Notes under the pieces: generated by a model
Databases searched by the model: none
What the model was told of the DNA's origin: nothing
Seen by the model: the letters and a program-made list of their open reading frames with translations, nothing else
Source: a virus
IMG/VR virus record: IMGVR_UViG_3300038566_000121
Span: 1-35,621 of that record
Direction: 5' to 3' (one strand)
DNA: 35,621 nucleotides
Shown: positions 3,623 through 28,436 of the stretch, in pieces
Numbering within the stretch: position 1 is the first letter of the stretch
Layout: the number at the start of each line of letters is the position of its first letter
Position numbers and translations under genes: made by a program

Positions 3623-3646
3623 TGTGGAGCCTCTTTTAGTTTAAGG

Positions 3647-3673
3647 TAAAAGCGGGGCCATTACAGCCCCGCT
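3647..3673 (-). terminator. Rho-independent terminator after capsid genes
   Basis: Read on the minus strand there is a perfect 8-bp stem, AGCGGGGC and GCCCCGCT (3666-3673 and 3651-3658), with a 7-nt loop, followed by TTTT including the last stem base, then ACC. It lies between the capsid-associated gene (stop at 3681) and the next gene (start at 3622). A terminator behind the major capsid region is common in T7-like and related phages, where partial readthrough lowers expression of the following neck genes. Confidence 0.8.
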
Positions 3674-3680
3674 AATTGTT

Positions 3681-5136: not shown

Positions 5137-6219
5137 CTAATTTGACATCAACCGGTCGTATGCGGAACCCAAAGCGTCCATTTCCGATATTGGCTTAGGG
5201 GTTCCCGTCCGGGATGATACATTAACAGATTTAGCTTTTATCGCTGCTTTCGTCCGTTTAGGAGATGATTCCGCTGCCTGTGTCGTAGGGTTTGGAGTCG
5301 TAGCCTTTAGTCCTTTGGCGGTGATAGCCATATTATAAGCGGCGTCAAGGATATCCGTGTTGGAGGCCCCTTCGCCAAGGTTGTATTGCGCTGCTGGGAT
5401 GTAAACCGGAATATCTGCCTCGACAGAACCCCAATGCTCCCTACTTGCCCCAAAACTCCGCACTTCATTTTGCAAAGCCTGATCTGCAAGCGCCTGCGTC
5501 ACAATCTCCTGCACATTAGCAGGATTGTTTGCCTGTTGCAACTGTTGTCGCATTTGGGCGATTTCTTGCTGTGTTTTAATCGTTTCAATGTTCTGTTGCG
5601 GCTGTCCCTGATACCCACTGACCTGCTTGCCGCCTAACTTTGCCGCCAGCGCCTCTAACTGCCCTGTCTGCTGCGCAACCATCAAAATGGTCCCCAAAGG
5701 ATCGCGCTGCAAGTTAGCCCGCGTGTGGGCGAGTTCCACGACTTCAGATGCCAATTGTTGCGGCGTCATGTTCAAGTCCGGGAATTGCTGCGCCGCCCGT
5801 GTAACTGATTCTGCGATAGGCTGAAATGCCGCCACCTGCCGCCCCAAGTTGGCGTTTTTGACGTTCTGGTCCTGAACCAGCTTTGAAATAGACGATTGCG
5901 CCTCCGCTGGGATATCTTTCCACTTGGCCTTTATCTCTTGGGGCAGGTAGGACGGTGCTTCTGTATTCTCAACAGCACTTTCTTCAGGTTCCTCCTCGGC
6001 CACTTCCTCCACATCGGATTCCTGCGCTTCAGCTTCGGCAGTTTCTGGCTCTGGCTCAACAGCAGGCTCCTCTTGGTTTTTCGACACAAAGCGCCCGGTT
6101 TCGTCGCGTTCACGCTCCAATGGCTCAGCGTTTAGCTTATCATAAATATCGCCTAGCTGAGAATCTTCGTCAACTTCCGGCGTTTCGGCTACTGCCTCCA
6201 CGGTTTCGTCAATCTGCAT
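5137..6219 (-). CDS. Scaffold protein
   Basis: 360 aa when started at the ATG at 6217-6219 (MQIDETVEAVAETPEVDEDS), which has AAAGGA seven bases upstream and overlaps the previous gene by eleven bases. A longer frame starting at 6318 runs deep into the upstream gene and is unlikely. The protein has a very acidic N-terminal third (EEPAVEPEPETAEAEAQESD), then Gln/Ala-rich helices (TQQEIAQMRQQLQQANNPAN) and a basic C-terminus (SSPKRTKAAIKAKSVNVSSR). An acidic N-terminal and a basic helical C-terminal end that contacts the coat are the hallmarks of podovirus scaffolds, and the gene lies directly before the capsid gene. Confidence 0.8.
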   Translation of the reverse strand: MQIDETVEAVAETPEVDEDSQLGDIYDKLNAEPLERERDETGRFVSKNQEEPAVEPEPETAEAEAQESDVEEVAEEEPEESAVENTEAPSYLPQEIKAKWKDIPAEAQSSISKLVQDQNVKNANLGRQVAAFQPIAESVTRAAQQFPDLNMTPQQLASEVVELAHTRANLQRDPLGTILMVAQQTGQLEALAAKLGGKQVSGYQGQPQQNIETIKTQQEIAQMRQQLQQANNPANVQEIVTQALADQALQNEVRSFGASREHWGSVEADIPVYIPAAQYNLGEGASNTDILDAAYNMAITAKGLKATTPNPTTQAAESSPKRTKAAIKAKSVNVSSRTGTPKPISEMDALGSAYDRLMSN

Positions 6220-6541: not shown

Positions 6542-7698
6542 TACTGCTGAACCCTCCGCAGATACGCCGCAAGGCTTTGGTCGTCTTGCTCTTGCGTGTA
6601 GGGCAGGTTCAACCCCATTGCTGCTAATGGTGAGCCTGTAATTGCCGATAGATTCGCAGAATGTGATAGGCGTGGATCAAAGCGGGCAAATTTGCTGCGG
6701 ATGTTTTCTGGTCTCCACGCTATTAAACCGTCCGTGGTGGCCAACCCGCCAATGCCCATACGATCCAAATCATCAATCACCGGCCCTGCCAATTCCGGAT
6801 CATCCCACATTCCAGCACTGTCAACAATATCATCCGGGTTAGCTTCGCGCGCTAGCGATGATGCAGTCACGTTATATTCTTCTTGCAGGTCGCGGCTGCG
6901 TATTGACCTTACAATATCTTTTTGAAAATCCGTAACATCTGAATCAGGCCTACCCATCCACATGGCAGGCCCATAACTTTCAATATCATCTAACTTTCCC
7001 ATAGCGTCTCCGCCACTTTCCACAAACATAGCATAATCTGTATCGTTAAATGGACTAGATTGCGATTGAGACCGTCTTACATAATCGAACCCCATTTCCT
7101 GCGCTCTCGCCATGCGCGAAGCTTCGTCCATAGGTAAATCATAGTTGTTAAATAAATAAGCATCATCAGCAGCGGCCAACATGTCATCAGTTACTTCAGA
7201 GCCACGGCCCGCCTTGAGCATCCTTAGAATATCATCCGCCTGTTGCTGTGCGGGGCTTAGATTATCAGCCGACCCTGCCGCCATACGCACCATGCTAGGG
7301 TCATACTTGCCAAACATTGCCGCTGCGCCCTGTGTATCAACCAAACCCGCAACAATCCGATCAATGGAGTTTTGCGATTCAGGGTCAATCTCGCCAGCAA
7401 GCGCTGCCCGTGGCATATCCACCAATCCAGCCCCATTATTCACCATTTCACGCGCCATATTAGGCCAAGCGAATGAAAGCCCGCCTTGCGTTGGCACGCG
7501 GTTGTGCGATGCCCTGCCCTGTGCGTCCGTGGTGGTCACTAGCTTTTCAAAGTCAGGGTCACGAGTGACTGGCAAAACATCGCTTGTGCTTGGCGGTCCC
7601 ATTATCTGAGAAAGCCAATTTGCGAGCGTTGGCCGTTGGCTTTGGTAATATTGTTTTTCCTCTGCCTGCGCCGCAAGTTCGTCTGCTAGGCTCCCCAT
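6541..7698 (-). CDS. Polyvalent protein, ADP-ribosyltransferase-like architecture
   Basis: 385 aa. From about residue 185 it reads DLPMDEASRMARAQEMGFD, and the C-terminus contains GLIAWRPENIRSKFARFDPR. This pair of motifs brackets ADP-ribosyltransferase-type domains in many phage polyvalent or MuF-like proteins. The usual YHGT start of the catalytic fold is not visible here (it reads YVRRSQSQSSPFNDTDYAMF), so the domain may be degenerate. The N-terminal part is Gln/Asn rich without clear folds. It is coupled to the portal gene by TAATG and could be packaged in the head as an ejected effector or be a portal-associated structural protein. Confidence 0.55.
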   Translation of the reverse strand: MGSLADELAAQAEEKQYYQSQRPTLANWLSQIMGPPSTSDVLPVTRDPDFEKLVTTTDAQGRASHNRVPTQGGLSFAWPNMAREMVNNGAGLVDMPRAALAGEIDPESQNSIDRIVAGLVDTQGAAAMFGKYDPSMVRMAAGSADNLSPAQQQADDILRMLKAGRGSEVTDDMLAAADDAYLFNNYDLPMDEASRMARAQEMGFDYVRRSQSQSSPFNDTDYAMFVESGGDAMGKLDDIESYGPAMWMGRPDSDVTDFQKDIVRSIRSRDLQEEYNVTASSLAREANPDDIVDSAGMWDDPELAGPVIDDLDRMGIGGLATTDGLIAWRPENIRSKFARFDPRLSHSANLSAITGSPLAAMGLNLPYTQEQDDQSLAAYLRRVQQ

Positions 7699-11817: not shown

Positions 11818-11845
11818 GGGAAAAGCCACCCCCGAAGGAATGGCT
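11818..11845 (-). terminator. Rho-independent terminator with UUCG tetraloop
   Basis: On the minus strand, a 9-bp stem (AGCCATTCC with GGGGTGGCT, including two G-U pairs) closes a TTCG loop between C and G, the very stable C(UUCG)G form. It is followed by TTTT counting the last stem base, then CCC. The stem begins at the stop codon of the 50-aa gene and ends the 12224-11845 transcript. Confidence 0.8.
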
Positions 11846-11997
11846 TAGAGGCTTTGGCAATCTTTGCCGTCTTTCAAGTCCTCGGCATATTCTTTCACCG
11901 CTTGCTCGTGTTCTGGCTTTACCCATATGCGCACAAGCTTAAGCCCCGCCTCTTTTTGGCGGAGCCTGAAGGCTTTCTGTTTTTCCGCGTTGGTCAT
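11845..11997 (-). CDS. 50-aa ribbon-helix-helix-like protein
   Basis: The translated frame is MTNAEKQKAFRLRQKEAGLK, then LVRIWVKPEHEQAVKEYAED and LKDGKDCQSL. The ATG overlaps the upstream stop as ATGA, and the stop codon enters the terminator stem. The pattern 'R.R..eaGlk.v.iwv..e...a.k.ya' resembles short RHH or MazE-like DNA-binding proteins found in alphaproteobacteria. It may regulate its own small operon. Too short for a firm assignment. Confidence 0.6.
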   Translation of the reverse strand: MTNAEKQKAFRLRQKEAGLKLVRIWVKPEHEQAVKEYAEDLKDGKDCQSL

Positions 11998-12224: not shown

Positions 12225-12262
12225 TTTGTCTCTCCTTGAGTGCAGCGGCCCTGTGCCGTCTG

Positions 12263-12302
12263 TCTATACCCTCAATATAGGTTACGCGTAACCAAATGTA
12301 AA
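12263..12302 (-). promoter_or_regulatory. Sigma70 promoter P1 with 14-bp palindromic operator candidate
   Basis: On the minus strand TTTACA (12297-12302), a 17-bp spacer and TATATT (12274-12279) form a good promoter for the 12224-11845 transcript. The spacer holds the perfect palindrome GGTTACGCGTAACC (12280-12293). The block TCTATACCCTCAATATAGG (12263-12281, plus-strand reading), covering the -10 and the start of the transcript, is identical at 14265-14283. Confidence 0.75.
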
Positions 12303-12809: not shown

Positions 12810-13261
12810 TTAATCACCCGCACTTCGACTTTTTCGACATGATCAGCGTCGAAACCTGCGCCTTTCATCTCATTTACCGCATATTTCTTACTGGCATAGA
12901 GCATCATATGGTCATCCTTCGGACGCCAGAAAAACTCCAGCTTTTGTGGTGTGTTCTTGACGCGGTAGGCGATGATTGGGTAATTTTCTGCAGCAGCCCA
13001 ATCCAAGCTCTCCGGCTGTGACGTTGTTAGACTGCCTGTAGGCACGTCAACAACCTCAACAATCACGCCATGCTCAACAGGGCAATCACCACCGTTCCAG
13101 CCAATCCACGGTCCCCATTCAGGCTCCGGCTCTGGAATGGCTTTGAGCAGGTCAATGGCGGCTTGAGCCAAAACGCGCTCTTCGCTTGGGGGATAGCTCC
13201 CTTCACACGCCGATAATGACGCGAGCCACTTCGTCACTTCTTGTTTTGTTGGTTTGGTCAT
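12806..13261 (-). CDS. Hypothetical protein with WNGGDCPV motif
   Basis: 151 aa. The centre reads WGPWIGWNGGDCPVEHGVIV, a motif that recurs in small phage proteins and is followed by beta-like segments (YPIIAYRVKNTPQKLEFFWR). The N-terminal 40 residues are helical (EVTKWLASLSACEGSYPPSE). It is coupled on both sides by ATGA overlaps, to the XRE gene upstream and the HD gene downstream. No biochemical role is known to me. Confidence 0.65.
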   Translation of the reverse strand: MTKPTKQEVTKWLASLSACEGSYPPSEERVLAQAAIDLLKAIPEPEPEWGPWIGWNGGDCPVEHGVIVEVVDVPTGSLTTSQPESLDWAAAENYPIIAYRVKNTPQKLEFFWRPKDDHMMLYASKKYAVNEMKGAGFDADHVEKVEVRVIK

Positions 13262-13431
13262 TGTGTTTCCTCCAAAAGATTTCGCATGTAAAACGCCAGC
13301 TCAAAGCTAACCCCTCGCAAGCCTCGCTCATAGCGGCTGATTGTGCCTTTATCCTTGTGCAATATCTTGGCCAGTTCTGGTTGTGAAAGGCCAAGCTGCT
13401 CACGTATCTCTTTGAATTGTTGCGGGGTCAT
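13258..13431 (-). CDS. XRE/Cro-type HTH regulator, 57 aa
   Basis: Encoded MTPQQFKEIREQLGLSQPEL, then AKILHKDKGTISRYERGLRG and VSFELAFYMRNLLEETQ. This is a complete Cro/C1-type helix-turn-helix (LSQPELAKIL...TISRYERG). The start ATG at 13429-13431 has a weak GAAAG site. The stop overlaps the next gene's start as ATGA. It stands directly downstream of the first covarying stem-loop. It may repress its own operon or bind the palindromes in the nearby promoters; this is inference. Confidence 0.8.
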   Translation of the reverse strand: MTPQQFKEIREQLGLSQPELAKILHKDKGTISRYERGLRGVSFELAFYMRNLLEETQ

Positions 13432-13446
13432 TTCATTTCTTTCAAT

Positions 13447-13494
13447 GTTGATATTCAGGAAGGGCGCGCCGCAACGCGCCTAGCCAAAAGATCA
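13447..13494 (-). repeat. Stem-loop element, copy 1
   Basis: A 48-nt element that starts at the TGA stop of the 13734-13492 gene. On the minus strand it has stem GGCGCG/CGCGCC with a 6-nt TTGCGG loop, then CCTTCCTGAA. It aligns without gaps to copy 2 at 14018-14065, and two stem positions change together so pairing is kept. It lies in the 60-base gap before the XRE gene. Confidence 0.7.
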
Positions 13495-13734
13495 GGCGAT
13501 TTCATCCAGCACGTGCGCAACATTTTGCGGATTATGGCAGTGATCAAAAAAGCCGTTGTTGATGTAGCTTTTGACCTTGCGGCTTCTGGCCGCGCTCCAA
13601 TCCTTCATGCGCCCATAGGCCAACACACTGGCTTCATCACGATCAACCCCGCACTGCAGCATGAATACCTCCATCAGTTGGCTGTGAACGTGCAGACGCA
13701 ATTCTATGTGTGCCGCTTGTTTTATTGTTGTCAT
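13492..13734 (-). CDS. Small hypothetical protein
   Basis: 80 aa, MTTIKQAAHIELRLHVHSQL onward, with AAAGGA eight bases before the ATG. It contains MLQCGVDRDEASVLAYGRMK and ends HNPQNVAHVLDEIA. It is mostly helical and rich in His. The stop codon is the first base triplet of stem-loop copy 1. No family recognised. Confidence 0.6.
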   Translation of the reverse strand: MTTIKQAAHIELRLHVHSQLMEVFMLQCGVDRDEASVLAYGRMKDWSAARSRKVKSYINNGFFDHCHNPQNVAHVLDEIA

Positions 13735-13746
13735 AGTCTAAATCCT

Positions 13747-13857
13747 TTATTTCGTGGCAATTGTTGCAATGATGAAAGCAAGCGCGGCGCCAATGGCCAA
13801 TGCCGCTAGAACGGTAGGCTCTGGGGCCGTGTCCGCTGTGATCTGGGGAAGGTTCAT
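13747..13857 (-). CDS. 36-aa single-pass membrane protein
   Basis: The frame reads MNLPQITADTAPEPTVLAAL, then AIGAALAFIIATIATK. Residues about 16-34 form one hydrophobic helix, so the protein is probably membrane-inserted with a short polar N-terminus. The ATG overlaps the upstream frame's stop as ATGA, and AAAGGA of the next gene follows its stop. Function unknown. Confidence 0.6.
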   Translation of the reverse strand: MNLPQITADTAPEPTVLAALAIGAALAFIIATIATK

Positions 13858-13952
13858 TGCTCAACCTCCTGCACGTCACAAGCCAAGCCTGCGGCCTTAC
13901 AAGCGCGTTCTGCGGCTACAAGCTGGCATTCGTCACAAAGTAGACGCGCCAA
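13854..13952 (-). CDS. Short Cys-rich ORF, start uncertain
   Basis: An open frame ends at a TGA that overlaps the following ATG (ATGA). The last 32 residues include RLLCDECQLVAAERACKAAG and LACDVQEVEQ, with a CxxC pair that could bind metal. The start given is a TTG at 13950-13952 with a poor ribosome site. The frame also stays open up to a TTG at 14081, but that would run through stem-loop copy 2 and into the previous gene. The real start cannot be fixed from the sequence. Confidence 0.35.
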   Translation of the reverse strand: MARLLCDECQLVAAERACKAAGLACDVQEVEQ

Positions 13953-14017
13953 CCGGTTAGCACCGGAATTTATTGATACAATATAAAGCGTTAGATAAGT
14001 CCTTTTGTTGCTGTGTG

Positions 14018-14065
14018 GTTGGTCTTCAGGAAGGGCCAGCCGAAACTGGCCTAACCAGAATATCA
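14018..14065 (-). repeat. Stem-loop element, copy 2
   Basis: It begins at the TGA stop of the 14245-14063 gene. The minus-strand stem is GGCCAG/CTGGCC with a TTTCGG loop, followed by CCTTCCTGAA. By hand alignment 38 of 48 positions match copy 1 at 13447-13494, and four of the ten differences are paired stem changes. Confidence 0.7.
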
Positions 14066-14245
14066 CGCATGAAAATCCCAAATGGTGCGTGCCAATTCTT
14101 TGTCGCCATCATTCCAATTGCGATTGGCGTTGTAATCCAACCTGCCAAAAGCGTCAGCCAAATCATCTGTTGATAAGTAATCTCGCGCCCATTTTGGGTC
14201 GTCTTTTACGGTTTTAGCTATCTTGCGAGCCTGTGCTAGTTTCAT
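14063..14245 (-). CDS. Small hypothetical protein
   Basis: 60 aa, MKLAQARKIAKTVKDDPKWA onward, with an excellent AAGGAG site eight bases before the ATG. It is basic at the N-terminus and Trp/Asp rich after that (LDYNANRNWNDGDKELARTI). First gene behind promoter P2. The stop codon begins stem-loop copy 2. No family recognised. Confidence 0.65.
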   Translation of the reverse strand: MKLAQARKIAKTVKDDPKWARDYLSTDDLADAFGRLDYNANRNWNDGDKELARTIWDFHA

Positions 14246-14264
14246 CTTGTCTCTCCTTTGTTTC

Positions 14265-14304
14265 TCTATACCCTCAATATAGGCTAATGGCCTAGGGATT
14301 GCAA
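14265..14304 (-). promoter_or_regulatory. Sigma70 promoter P2 with inverted-repeat operator candidate
   Basis: On the minus strand TTGCAA (14299-14304), a 17-bp spacer and TATATT (14276-14281). The 19-bp block TCTATACCCTCAATATAGG (14265-14283, plus-strand reading) is identical to that of P1. The spacer contains TAGGC-N5-GCCTA (14280-14294). It drives the small-gene operon from 14245 leftward. Confidence 0.75.
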
Positions 14305-23310: not shown

Positions 23311-23580
23311 ATGACCGAAGAAGAAGCAAAAACCAAATTGTGTCCGCAAGCGATTGAATATGAAACACGCGAGAATTGCCATGGCTCAGACTGCATGGCT
23401 TGGCGGTGGATCCCGCTCAACGCCAATACGCCTGAATATATCGCGGCGCTTAAGGAGTGCGAAAAAGAGCGCGGCATGACGGCTAAAGGTGCAGCAAAAT
23501 ATGTGCTGGAAAATAAGGCTGAATTTGCCCTGCCAACGAAACCCTTTGAAGGATATTGCGGTCTAGCAGGCAAGCCATAA
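23311..23580 (+). CDS. Cys-rich CMAWRW-motif protein, copy 1
   Basis: 89 aa. It starts MTEEEAKTKLCPQAIEYETR and contains CHGSDCMAWRW and GYCGLAGKP. A second gene at 26459-26695 has the same opening, the same CxGSxCMAWRW box and the same end, so the pair are paralogues. The conserved Cys residues (CPQ, C..S.C, YCG) suggest a small metal-binding fold. Function unknown. Confidence 0.65.
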   Translation: MTEEEAKTKLCPQAIEYETRENCHGSDCMAWRWIPLNANTPEYIAALKECEKERGMTAKGAAKYVLENKAEFALPTKPFEGYCGLAGKP

Positions 23581-26054: not shown

Positions 26055-26462
26055 ATGACTGACACAATGGAAATAATGCAATACATGCTAGTCCAGAATG
26101 ACGGTGCTCACAAGAGCCATGTTTATGAACATCTTTATTCTGACTTTGCCAAAATGGTGAATGACTTAGCAACTGGCGAGGATAACTATTGGACCATCCA
26201 AGTGCTTAGCTTAGACATGAAGGGTGACAAAATATCCTCGATGGGAGATATTACAGATTTTGTTGCGGAATGTGTTGCTGAGGAAAGTTGGGATATGGCT
26301 ACCAAGGGCCGTGATGTTCACCCGCTGACGTTGTCATATAAAAGTCTTGCCAAGCGCGTTGAGGATATCGCCGAGATCGAGCGTATTCGCGCCGAATATT
26401 TCGGTTGCAAAATGCCGCGCGCCGTAATTGAGCGGCTTGAAGAATTGGGGGATACGGTATGA
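26055..26462 (+). CDS. Hypothetical protein
   Basis: 135 aa, MTDTMEIMQYMLVQNDGAHK onward. TAGGAG nine bases before the ATG. Acidic, with a conserved-looking Trp pair and a helical end (RVEDIAEIERIRAEYFGCKM). Its stop overlaps the paralogue copy 2 start as ATGA. No family recognised. Confidence 0.55.
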   Translation: MTDTMEIMQYMLVQNDGAHKSHVYEHLYSDFAKMVNDLATGEDNYWTIQVLSLDMKGDKISSMGDITDFVAECVAEESWDMATKGRDVHPLTLSYKSLAKRVEDIAEIERIRAEYFGCKMPRAVIERLEELGDTV

Positions 26463-26695
26463 CTGAGGAAGAAGCAAAAAACAAATGGTGTCCGCAAACA
26501 TTGGCAAGCGACTGCCCGGATGAAATTAACGGGCGGGAAGCAGTTTACTTTGCAGGGGGTATAAGATGCCGAGGCTCAGAGTGCATGGCTTGGCGGTGGG
26601 ATGAACCGGATGGCTTGGCAATGTCCGAGATGGAACAACAAGATGCTGTTCGCCCATCAACAAGCGGCTACTGCGGATTGGTAGGCAAGCCATGA
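26459..26695 (+). CDS. Cys-rich CMAWRW-motif protein, copy 2
   Basis: 78 aa. It opens MTEEEAKNKWCPQTLASDCP and contains CRGSECMAWRW and GYCGLVGKP, matching the gene at 23311-23580. The middle differs, with an extra Cys and REAVYFAGG absent from copy 1 and a shorter linker before GYCG. Overlaps on both sides (ATGA). The duplication and retained Cys pattern point to a functional zinc-binding fold of unknown role. Confidence 0.65.
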   Translation: MTEEEAKNKWCPQTLASDCPDEINGREAVYFAGGIRCRGSECMAWRWDEPDGLAMSEMEQQDAVRPSTSGYCGLVGKP

Positions 26696-28192: not shown

Positions 28193-28390
28193 ATGTTAAC
28201 AATAAAACAGGCCAGAAAGCTTTTGGCAGAAGTTGATCAACTTGAGGATGACGCATATGTGCGGGCACTTTTGGACGTGCAGCAAAATATCTTTAACCTG
28301 ATAGATGCAGACACACCAGACGATCAAATGGTAAATTTACTTAGTGAGAGTATTGGCGAGCGCATAGATGAAAAAACTATACGCTTTTAA
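28193..28390 (+). CDS. Small helical protein
   Basis: 65 aa from the ATG at 28193 (MLTIKQARKLLAEVDQLEDD), seven bases after AGGAG; an ATG six bases earlier is too close to that site. Acidic and fully helical. Not recognised. Confidence 0.55.
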   Translation: MLTIKQARKLLAEVDQLEDDAYVRALLDVQQNIFNLIDADTPDDQMVNLLSESIGERIDEKTIRF

Positions 28391-28397
28391 CCCAACC

Positions 28398-28419
28398 GCC
28401 CGCTGCTACGGTGGCGGGC
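28398..28419 (+). repeat. GC-rich hairpin in short intergenic gap
   Basis: GCCCGC (28398-28403) and GCGGGC (28414-28419) with a 10-nt loop, just after a stop codon and before GGAGG of the next gene. It follows the same position rule as the hairpins at 23587 and 24170. Confidence 0.45.
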
Positions 28420-28436
28420 ATACTTTGGAGGATAAC

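Follow-up and report, generated by a model that had tools for sequence, protein, structure and literature searches.

Do the two similar hairpins that follow the stop codons of two small genes in one phage operon represent a selected RNA structure and, if so, what might such a structure do between genes? The 35,621-base virus record analyzed here, which we refer to as the window, belongs to an uncultured tailed phage. Among named phages, its terminase is nearest to those of Rhizobium and Bradyrhizobium phages (~45% identity), and relatives were collected through terminase and primase matches. Both hairpins are located in a leftward operon, 3' of the primase gene, together with the following features.

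13447..13497, minus strand: hairpin copy 2, consisting of a stop codon, an irregular lower stem, a 7-bp stem with a UGCG loop and a CUUCCUGAA tail (repeat search, folding, alignment)
13463..13480, minus strand: core stem-loop of copy 2, GGCGCGU-UGCG-GCGCGCC (folding)
14018..14068, minus strand: hairpin copy 1, consisting of a stop codon, an irregular lower stem, a 7-bp stem with a UUCG loop and a CUUCCUGAA tail (repeat search, folding, alignment)
14034..14051, minus strand: core stem-loop of copy 1, GGCCAGU-UUCG-GCUGGCC (folding)
13492..13734, minus strand: 80-aa ORF that ends at copy 2 (ORF list, relative searches)
14063..14245, minus strand: 60-aa ORF that ends at copy 1 (ORF list, relative searches)
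13258..13431, minus strand: gene for a 57-aa helix-turn-helix (HTH_3) regulator downstream of copy 2 (PF01381, 41.7 bits, cutoff 23)
13854..13951, minus strand: small ORF downstream of copy 1, start uncertain (inferred; TTG at 13951 assumed)
14276..14304, minus strand: promoter-like site TTGCAA-17-TATATT (promoter scan; same arrangement in L035, the closest relative)

An earlier note on this DNA had described a gap-free alignment of 48 nt (13447-13494 against 14018-14065) with 38 matches. This alignment and its coordinates are borne out, and a repeat tool lengthens the match to 51 nt, with 40 of the 51 positions (78%) identical between 13447-13497 and 14018-14068, again gap-free. In a blastn comparison of one copy with the other, with the fetched loci as the database, the E-value was ~8e-6. 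The alignment demonstrates, at the level of sequence, a common origin of the two copies. As the earlier note stated, each copy starts at the TGA of a different small gene, read in the minus sense: 13494-13492 for the 80-aa ORF and 14065-14063 for the 60-aa ORF. On the minus strand, the order in each copy is the TGA of the small ORF, 11 nt, the 7-bp UNCG stem and CUUCCUGAA. The proteins encoded upstream of the two copies show no mutual similarity, so that the repeated unit is a stop-plus-hairpin block rather than a shared gene end; searches for protein relatives of the 80-aa and 60-aa ORFs found none. Downstream of copy 1, the stop of the small ORF 13854..13951 overlaps the ATG of a 36-aa ORF (13747-13857).

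Both copies adopt a common predicted fold, in which a 7-bp stem ends in a U·G pair that closes a UNCG tetraloop (UGCG or UUCG), and the core is surrounded by an irregular lower stem of 5 interrupted pairs. The 6-nt loop described previously is better read as a U-G-closed UNCG tetraloop (UUGCGG and UUUCGG). The reported alteration of two stem pairs on both sides holds as well: pair 21-32 changes from G-C to C-G and pair 22-31 from C-G to A-U. In addition, the outer pair 11-42 is U-G in one copy and C-G in the other. Across the two copies, 24 of 24 pair cells form, with no broken pairs, that is, all 12 pairs remain intact despite 11 differences. The loop difference is confined to the free N of the UNCG, with the closing U-G retained, and the internal loop, a U-U mismatch and the tail are conserved too.

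When the 11 substitutions were placed at random, only 7 of 10,000 trials (0.07%) kept every one of the 12 pairs and included two or more compensated double changes, and because random substitutions so seldom retain the pairing pattern, the hairpin structure is probably under selection. Sliding the partners by 1-3 columns abolished all covariation. A column-shuffle control (128 of 500) has no power with two rows only. A degenerate core pattern, with up to 3 mismatches allowed, matched the window twice, compared to 0.03 matches expected. The repeated unit by itself folds better than its shuffles (z -2.6 and -2.7); with the flanks included, the folding energy is no better than that of shuffles, and because this energy is ordinary, the evidence lies in the pairing pattern and not in exceptional stability. 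The earlier note had spoken outright of a selected RNA structure; the conservation of pairing through sequence change stands, but the selection itself is only probable, since proof is beyond a comparison of two sequences.

Any argument for selection depends on these two copies, because a covariance model built from them matched nothing further in relatives, a search that the earlier note had asked for and that took in 44 loci and the whole of 24 virus records. A scan of the window with the core pattern revealed no third copy. Exact-pattern scans of IMG/VR, with two patterns, and of GTDB, with 84,980 species represented by a single genome each, yielded no match with the whole structure, and Rfam produced nothing at either gathering or permissive thresholds. 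Two full-stem GTDB matches (L060 and L061) represent one and the same Bradyrhizobium site, which was rejected: the outer stem is absent and, by eye, the site is inside a coding gene. As far as sequence comparison can tell, the element is an orphan within the sets searched, from which close records may be left out.

Pairing without fixed sequence is found elsewhere in this phage group. In the leftward intergenic DNA of the window (~1.2 kb, on a gene map hand-drawn from the ORF list), three UNCG hairpins have stems of 7 bp or longer, compared to 0.01 expected from shuffles. On the plus strand, in the region 28390-28420, a fourth UNCG hairpin (at about 28398-28419), UACG-capped and with a stem of 9 bp, directly follows the stop codon of a small gene and precedes a ribosome site. 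At the orthologous junction upstream of a 194-aa gene (3623-3680 in the window), hairpins of 10-11 bp are present in the window and in 3 of the 5 relatives found, with unrelated sequences, with the loops UAA, UCAG, UUCG and UACG, and with U-run tails in some only. Automatic gene calls on the relatives were set aside, since false ORFs covered hairpins. Taking together this junction and the UNCG hairpins, intergenic hairpins are a habit of the phage group, free in sequence and kept in pairing. As a separate observation, the layout at about 28390-28420 is the same as that of the two copies, and the small gene before this hairpin shares its start, TIKQA, with the 80-aa gene.

The promoter-like site at 14276..14304 would start the transcript that carries both hairpins. 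Promoter-like cassettes on the minus strand at 12258-12302 and 14260-14304 have CTATATTGAGGGTATAGA in common, preceded by a -35-like hexamer at a distance of 17 nt. L035 repeats this arrangement 3' of its primase gene (7065-7120) and L008 has it at about 3467, which suggests a conserved early promoter of the phage group. L035 shares 75% identity with the window phage in the helicase and 71% in the primase, and carries different small genes at the matching place.

The explanation that we prefer, and to which we assign an even chance, is that 13447-13497 and 14018-14068 are diverged copies of one intercistronic hairpin in a leftward early transcript, which most likely serves as an RNA-level boundary 3' of the preceding ORF. 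Under this explanation, the stop codon, the irregular UNCG-capped hairpin and the CUUCCUGAA tail would have passed, by duplication or movement, between small genes that are not related, in a direction and by a mechanism that we infer, and the pairing of the block would have been maintained after the duplication. The hairpin could then block 3'-5' exonucleases, slow the polymerase or ribosomes, or both, with the result that the genes on its two sides in a single mRNA would reach different levels. Direct sequestration of the ribosome site at copy 2 is unlikely because the ATG of the following gene is ~20 nt beyond the outer stem, and both the start codon and the ribosome site are outside the hairpin. 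Several points speak against our explanation: a single genome holds the two known copies, with none in the relatives examined; the fold with its flanks is no better than shuffles; and template switching in palindromes is another source of paired changes (PMC7202029). Among the possible functions, that of a 3'-end barrier or stabilizer in a polycistronic mRNA seems the most likely, followed by that of a weak terminator or attenuator and, third, by that of a site for a specific protein.

Compared to known systems, the pair can be filed among the intercistronic hairpins of phage mRNAs: a UNCG tetraloop caps each copy, on the sense strand, at an mRNA junction. In phage T4, C(UUCG)G hairpins lie between genes. 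Such hairpins, described in T4 mRNAs (Tuerk et al. 1988, as cited in PMC3972237), resemble the present ones in being phage mRNA elements with a UNCG tetraloop on a GC-rich stem, and by this analogy the pair may work in a similar manner. However, the closing pair is U-G in both copies, instead of the C-G of the extra-stable cUNCGg (T4 CUUCGG) type, the conserved block is longer and includes a tail, and the phage group is different. The Extended Start-Associated Sequences (ESAS) of cluster K mycobacteriophages occur in many copies, with 17-bp arms and spacers of mostly 4-13 bp, and adjoin a 13-bp start-associated sequence of the GGGATAGGAGCCC type (PMC3203893). Like ESAS, the present elements are imperfect inverted repeats that recur between non-structural genes of one phage; unlike ESAS, they have a 7-bp core stem and a CUUCCUGAA tail, and the 51-nt repeat contains no GGGATAGGAGCCC-type 13-mer. 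Membership in ESAS was rejected on account of the missing 17-bp arms and 13-bp repeat. The promoter-stem-loop cassettes (PeSL) of T4-type phages are repeated stem-loop units between genes. The window phage likewise has stem-loop repeats between genes and also repeats a promoter cassette, but here the hairpins and the promoter repeats are separate.

The strongest rival, in our view rather unlikely, holds that the hairpins are weak or factor-dependent terminators, or attenuators, that lower downstream expression. A GC-rich hairpin directly 3' of a stop codon, as in intrinsic (Rho-independent) terminators, would suit this role, and other gene-end hairpins of the phage group carry U-runs (3623-3680 and 11823-11846 in the window, and in L009 and L016). 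Nevertheless, the U-run that should directly follow the stem of an intrinsic terminator is missing, as had been noted before: CUUCCUGA comes next in both copies, and just 3 of the 8 nt past the stem are U. Moreover, a terminator scan lists neither site, and genes continue downstream with no obvious new promoter.

Conservation of the tail, the internal loop and the U-U mismatch exceeds the needs of a plain stem and would be accounted for if both places were bound or cleaved by a specific protein, through RNase III-like processing or by a phage RNA-binding regulator. We consider this improbable, given that the lower stem is weak, with its 5 interrupted pairs, and that no candidate protein was identified. 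A bolder version, in which a mobile stop-plus-hairpin cassette inserts at gene ends and sets the expression ratios of early genes once its RNA is recognized by a protein of the phage or the host, has likewise a small chance of being correct. Imperfect inverted repeats become more perfect through template switching, which could yield paired changes (PMC7202029). The pair might accordingly be a functionless duplicated palindrome, kept paired through quasipalindrome template-switch repair in replication, which would fit the presence of two copies only and the lack of relatives. We assign a low probability to this possibility: it leaves unexplained the retained U-G closing pair, which is not complementary in DNA, the confinement of the loop change to the N of UNCG, and the conservation of the outer stem and the tail.

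The earlier note had itself named a duplicated coding segment as a challenge to the RNA reading. Such a remnant, or a short peptide under protein selection, would correspond to the minus frame IFWLGxxRxALPExQ, in which 11 of 16 residues are identical between the copies, 3 changes are synonymous and 5 of the 11 differences fall at third positions. However, copy 2 lacks a usual start codon, with stops bounding it on both sides, the remaining frames also yield 8-10 identities, and the degenerate peptide pattern matches nothing in IMG/VR. A frameshift was ruled out because copy 2 closes the frame two codons upstream. Thus, neither frame statistics nor the peptide scan reveals protein-level selection strong enough to displace the RNA reading; we regard the peptide likeness as a by-product of nucleotide similarity and this origin as highly improbable. 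An operator palindrome in the DNA, to which the adjacent HTH protein would bind (its gene is just downstream of copy 2), is scarcely credible because the arms, unlike operator half-sites, differ between the copies, with the pairing kept rather than the sequence.

The pair, then, is probably a real but ordinary mRNA hairpin between genes, and alone it opens no new class. The intercistronic hairpin that we favor presents a natural, small-scale case of paired-arm evolution after duplication within one phage operon and, if functional, would imply that phages use portable hairpins to tune single genes within polycistronic early mRNAs.

Several further observations were made in the window and its relatives. 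In L035, 306 nt of the plus strand without a gene call (7285-7590), located between the promoter-proximal small gene and the gene that follows it, fold at -130 kcal/mol (z -3.9 compared to shuffles) into a long stem with GGCGCGCC on both arms. This region has no match in Rfam or among phage DNA, and the predicted fold makes a structured non-coding RNA possible. In the window, 23311-23409 and 26459-26599 on the plus strand are ~90% alike and apparently represent paralogous small genes. Finally, in the related phage L036, positions 5464-5500 of the plus strand match the Rfam abiF RNA at 37.3 bits, compared to the threshold of 37.
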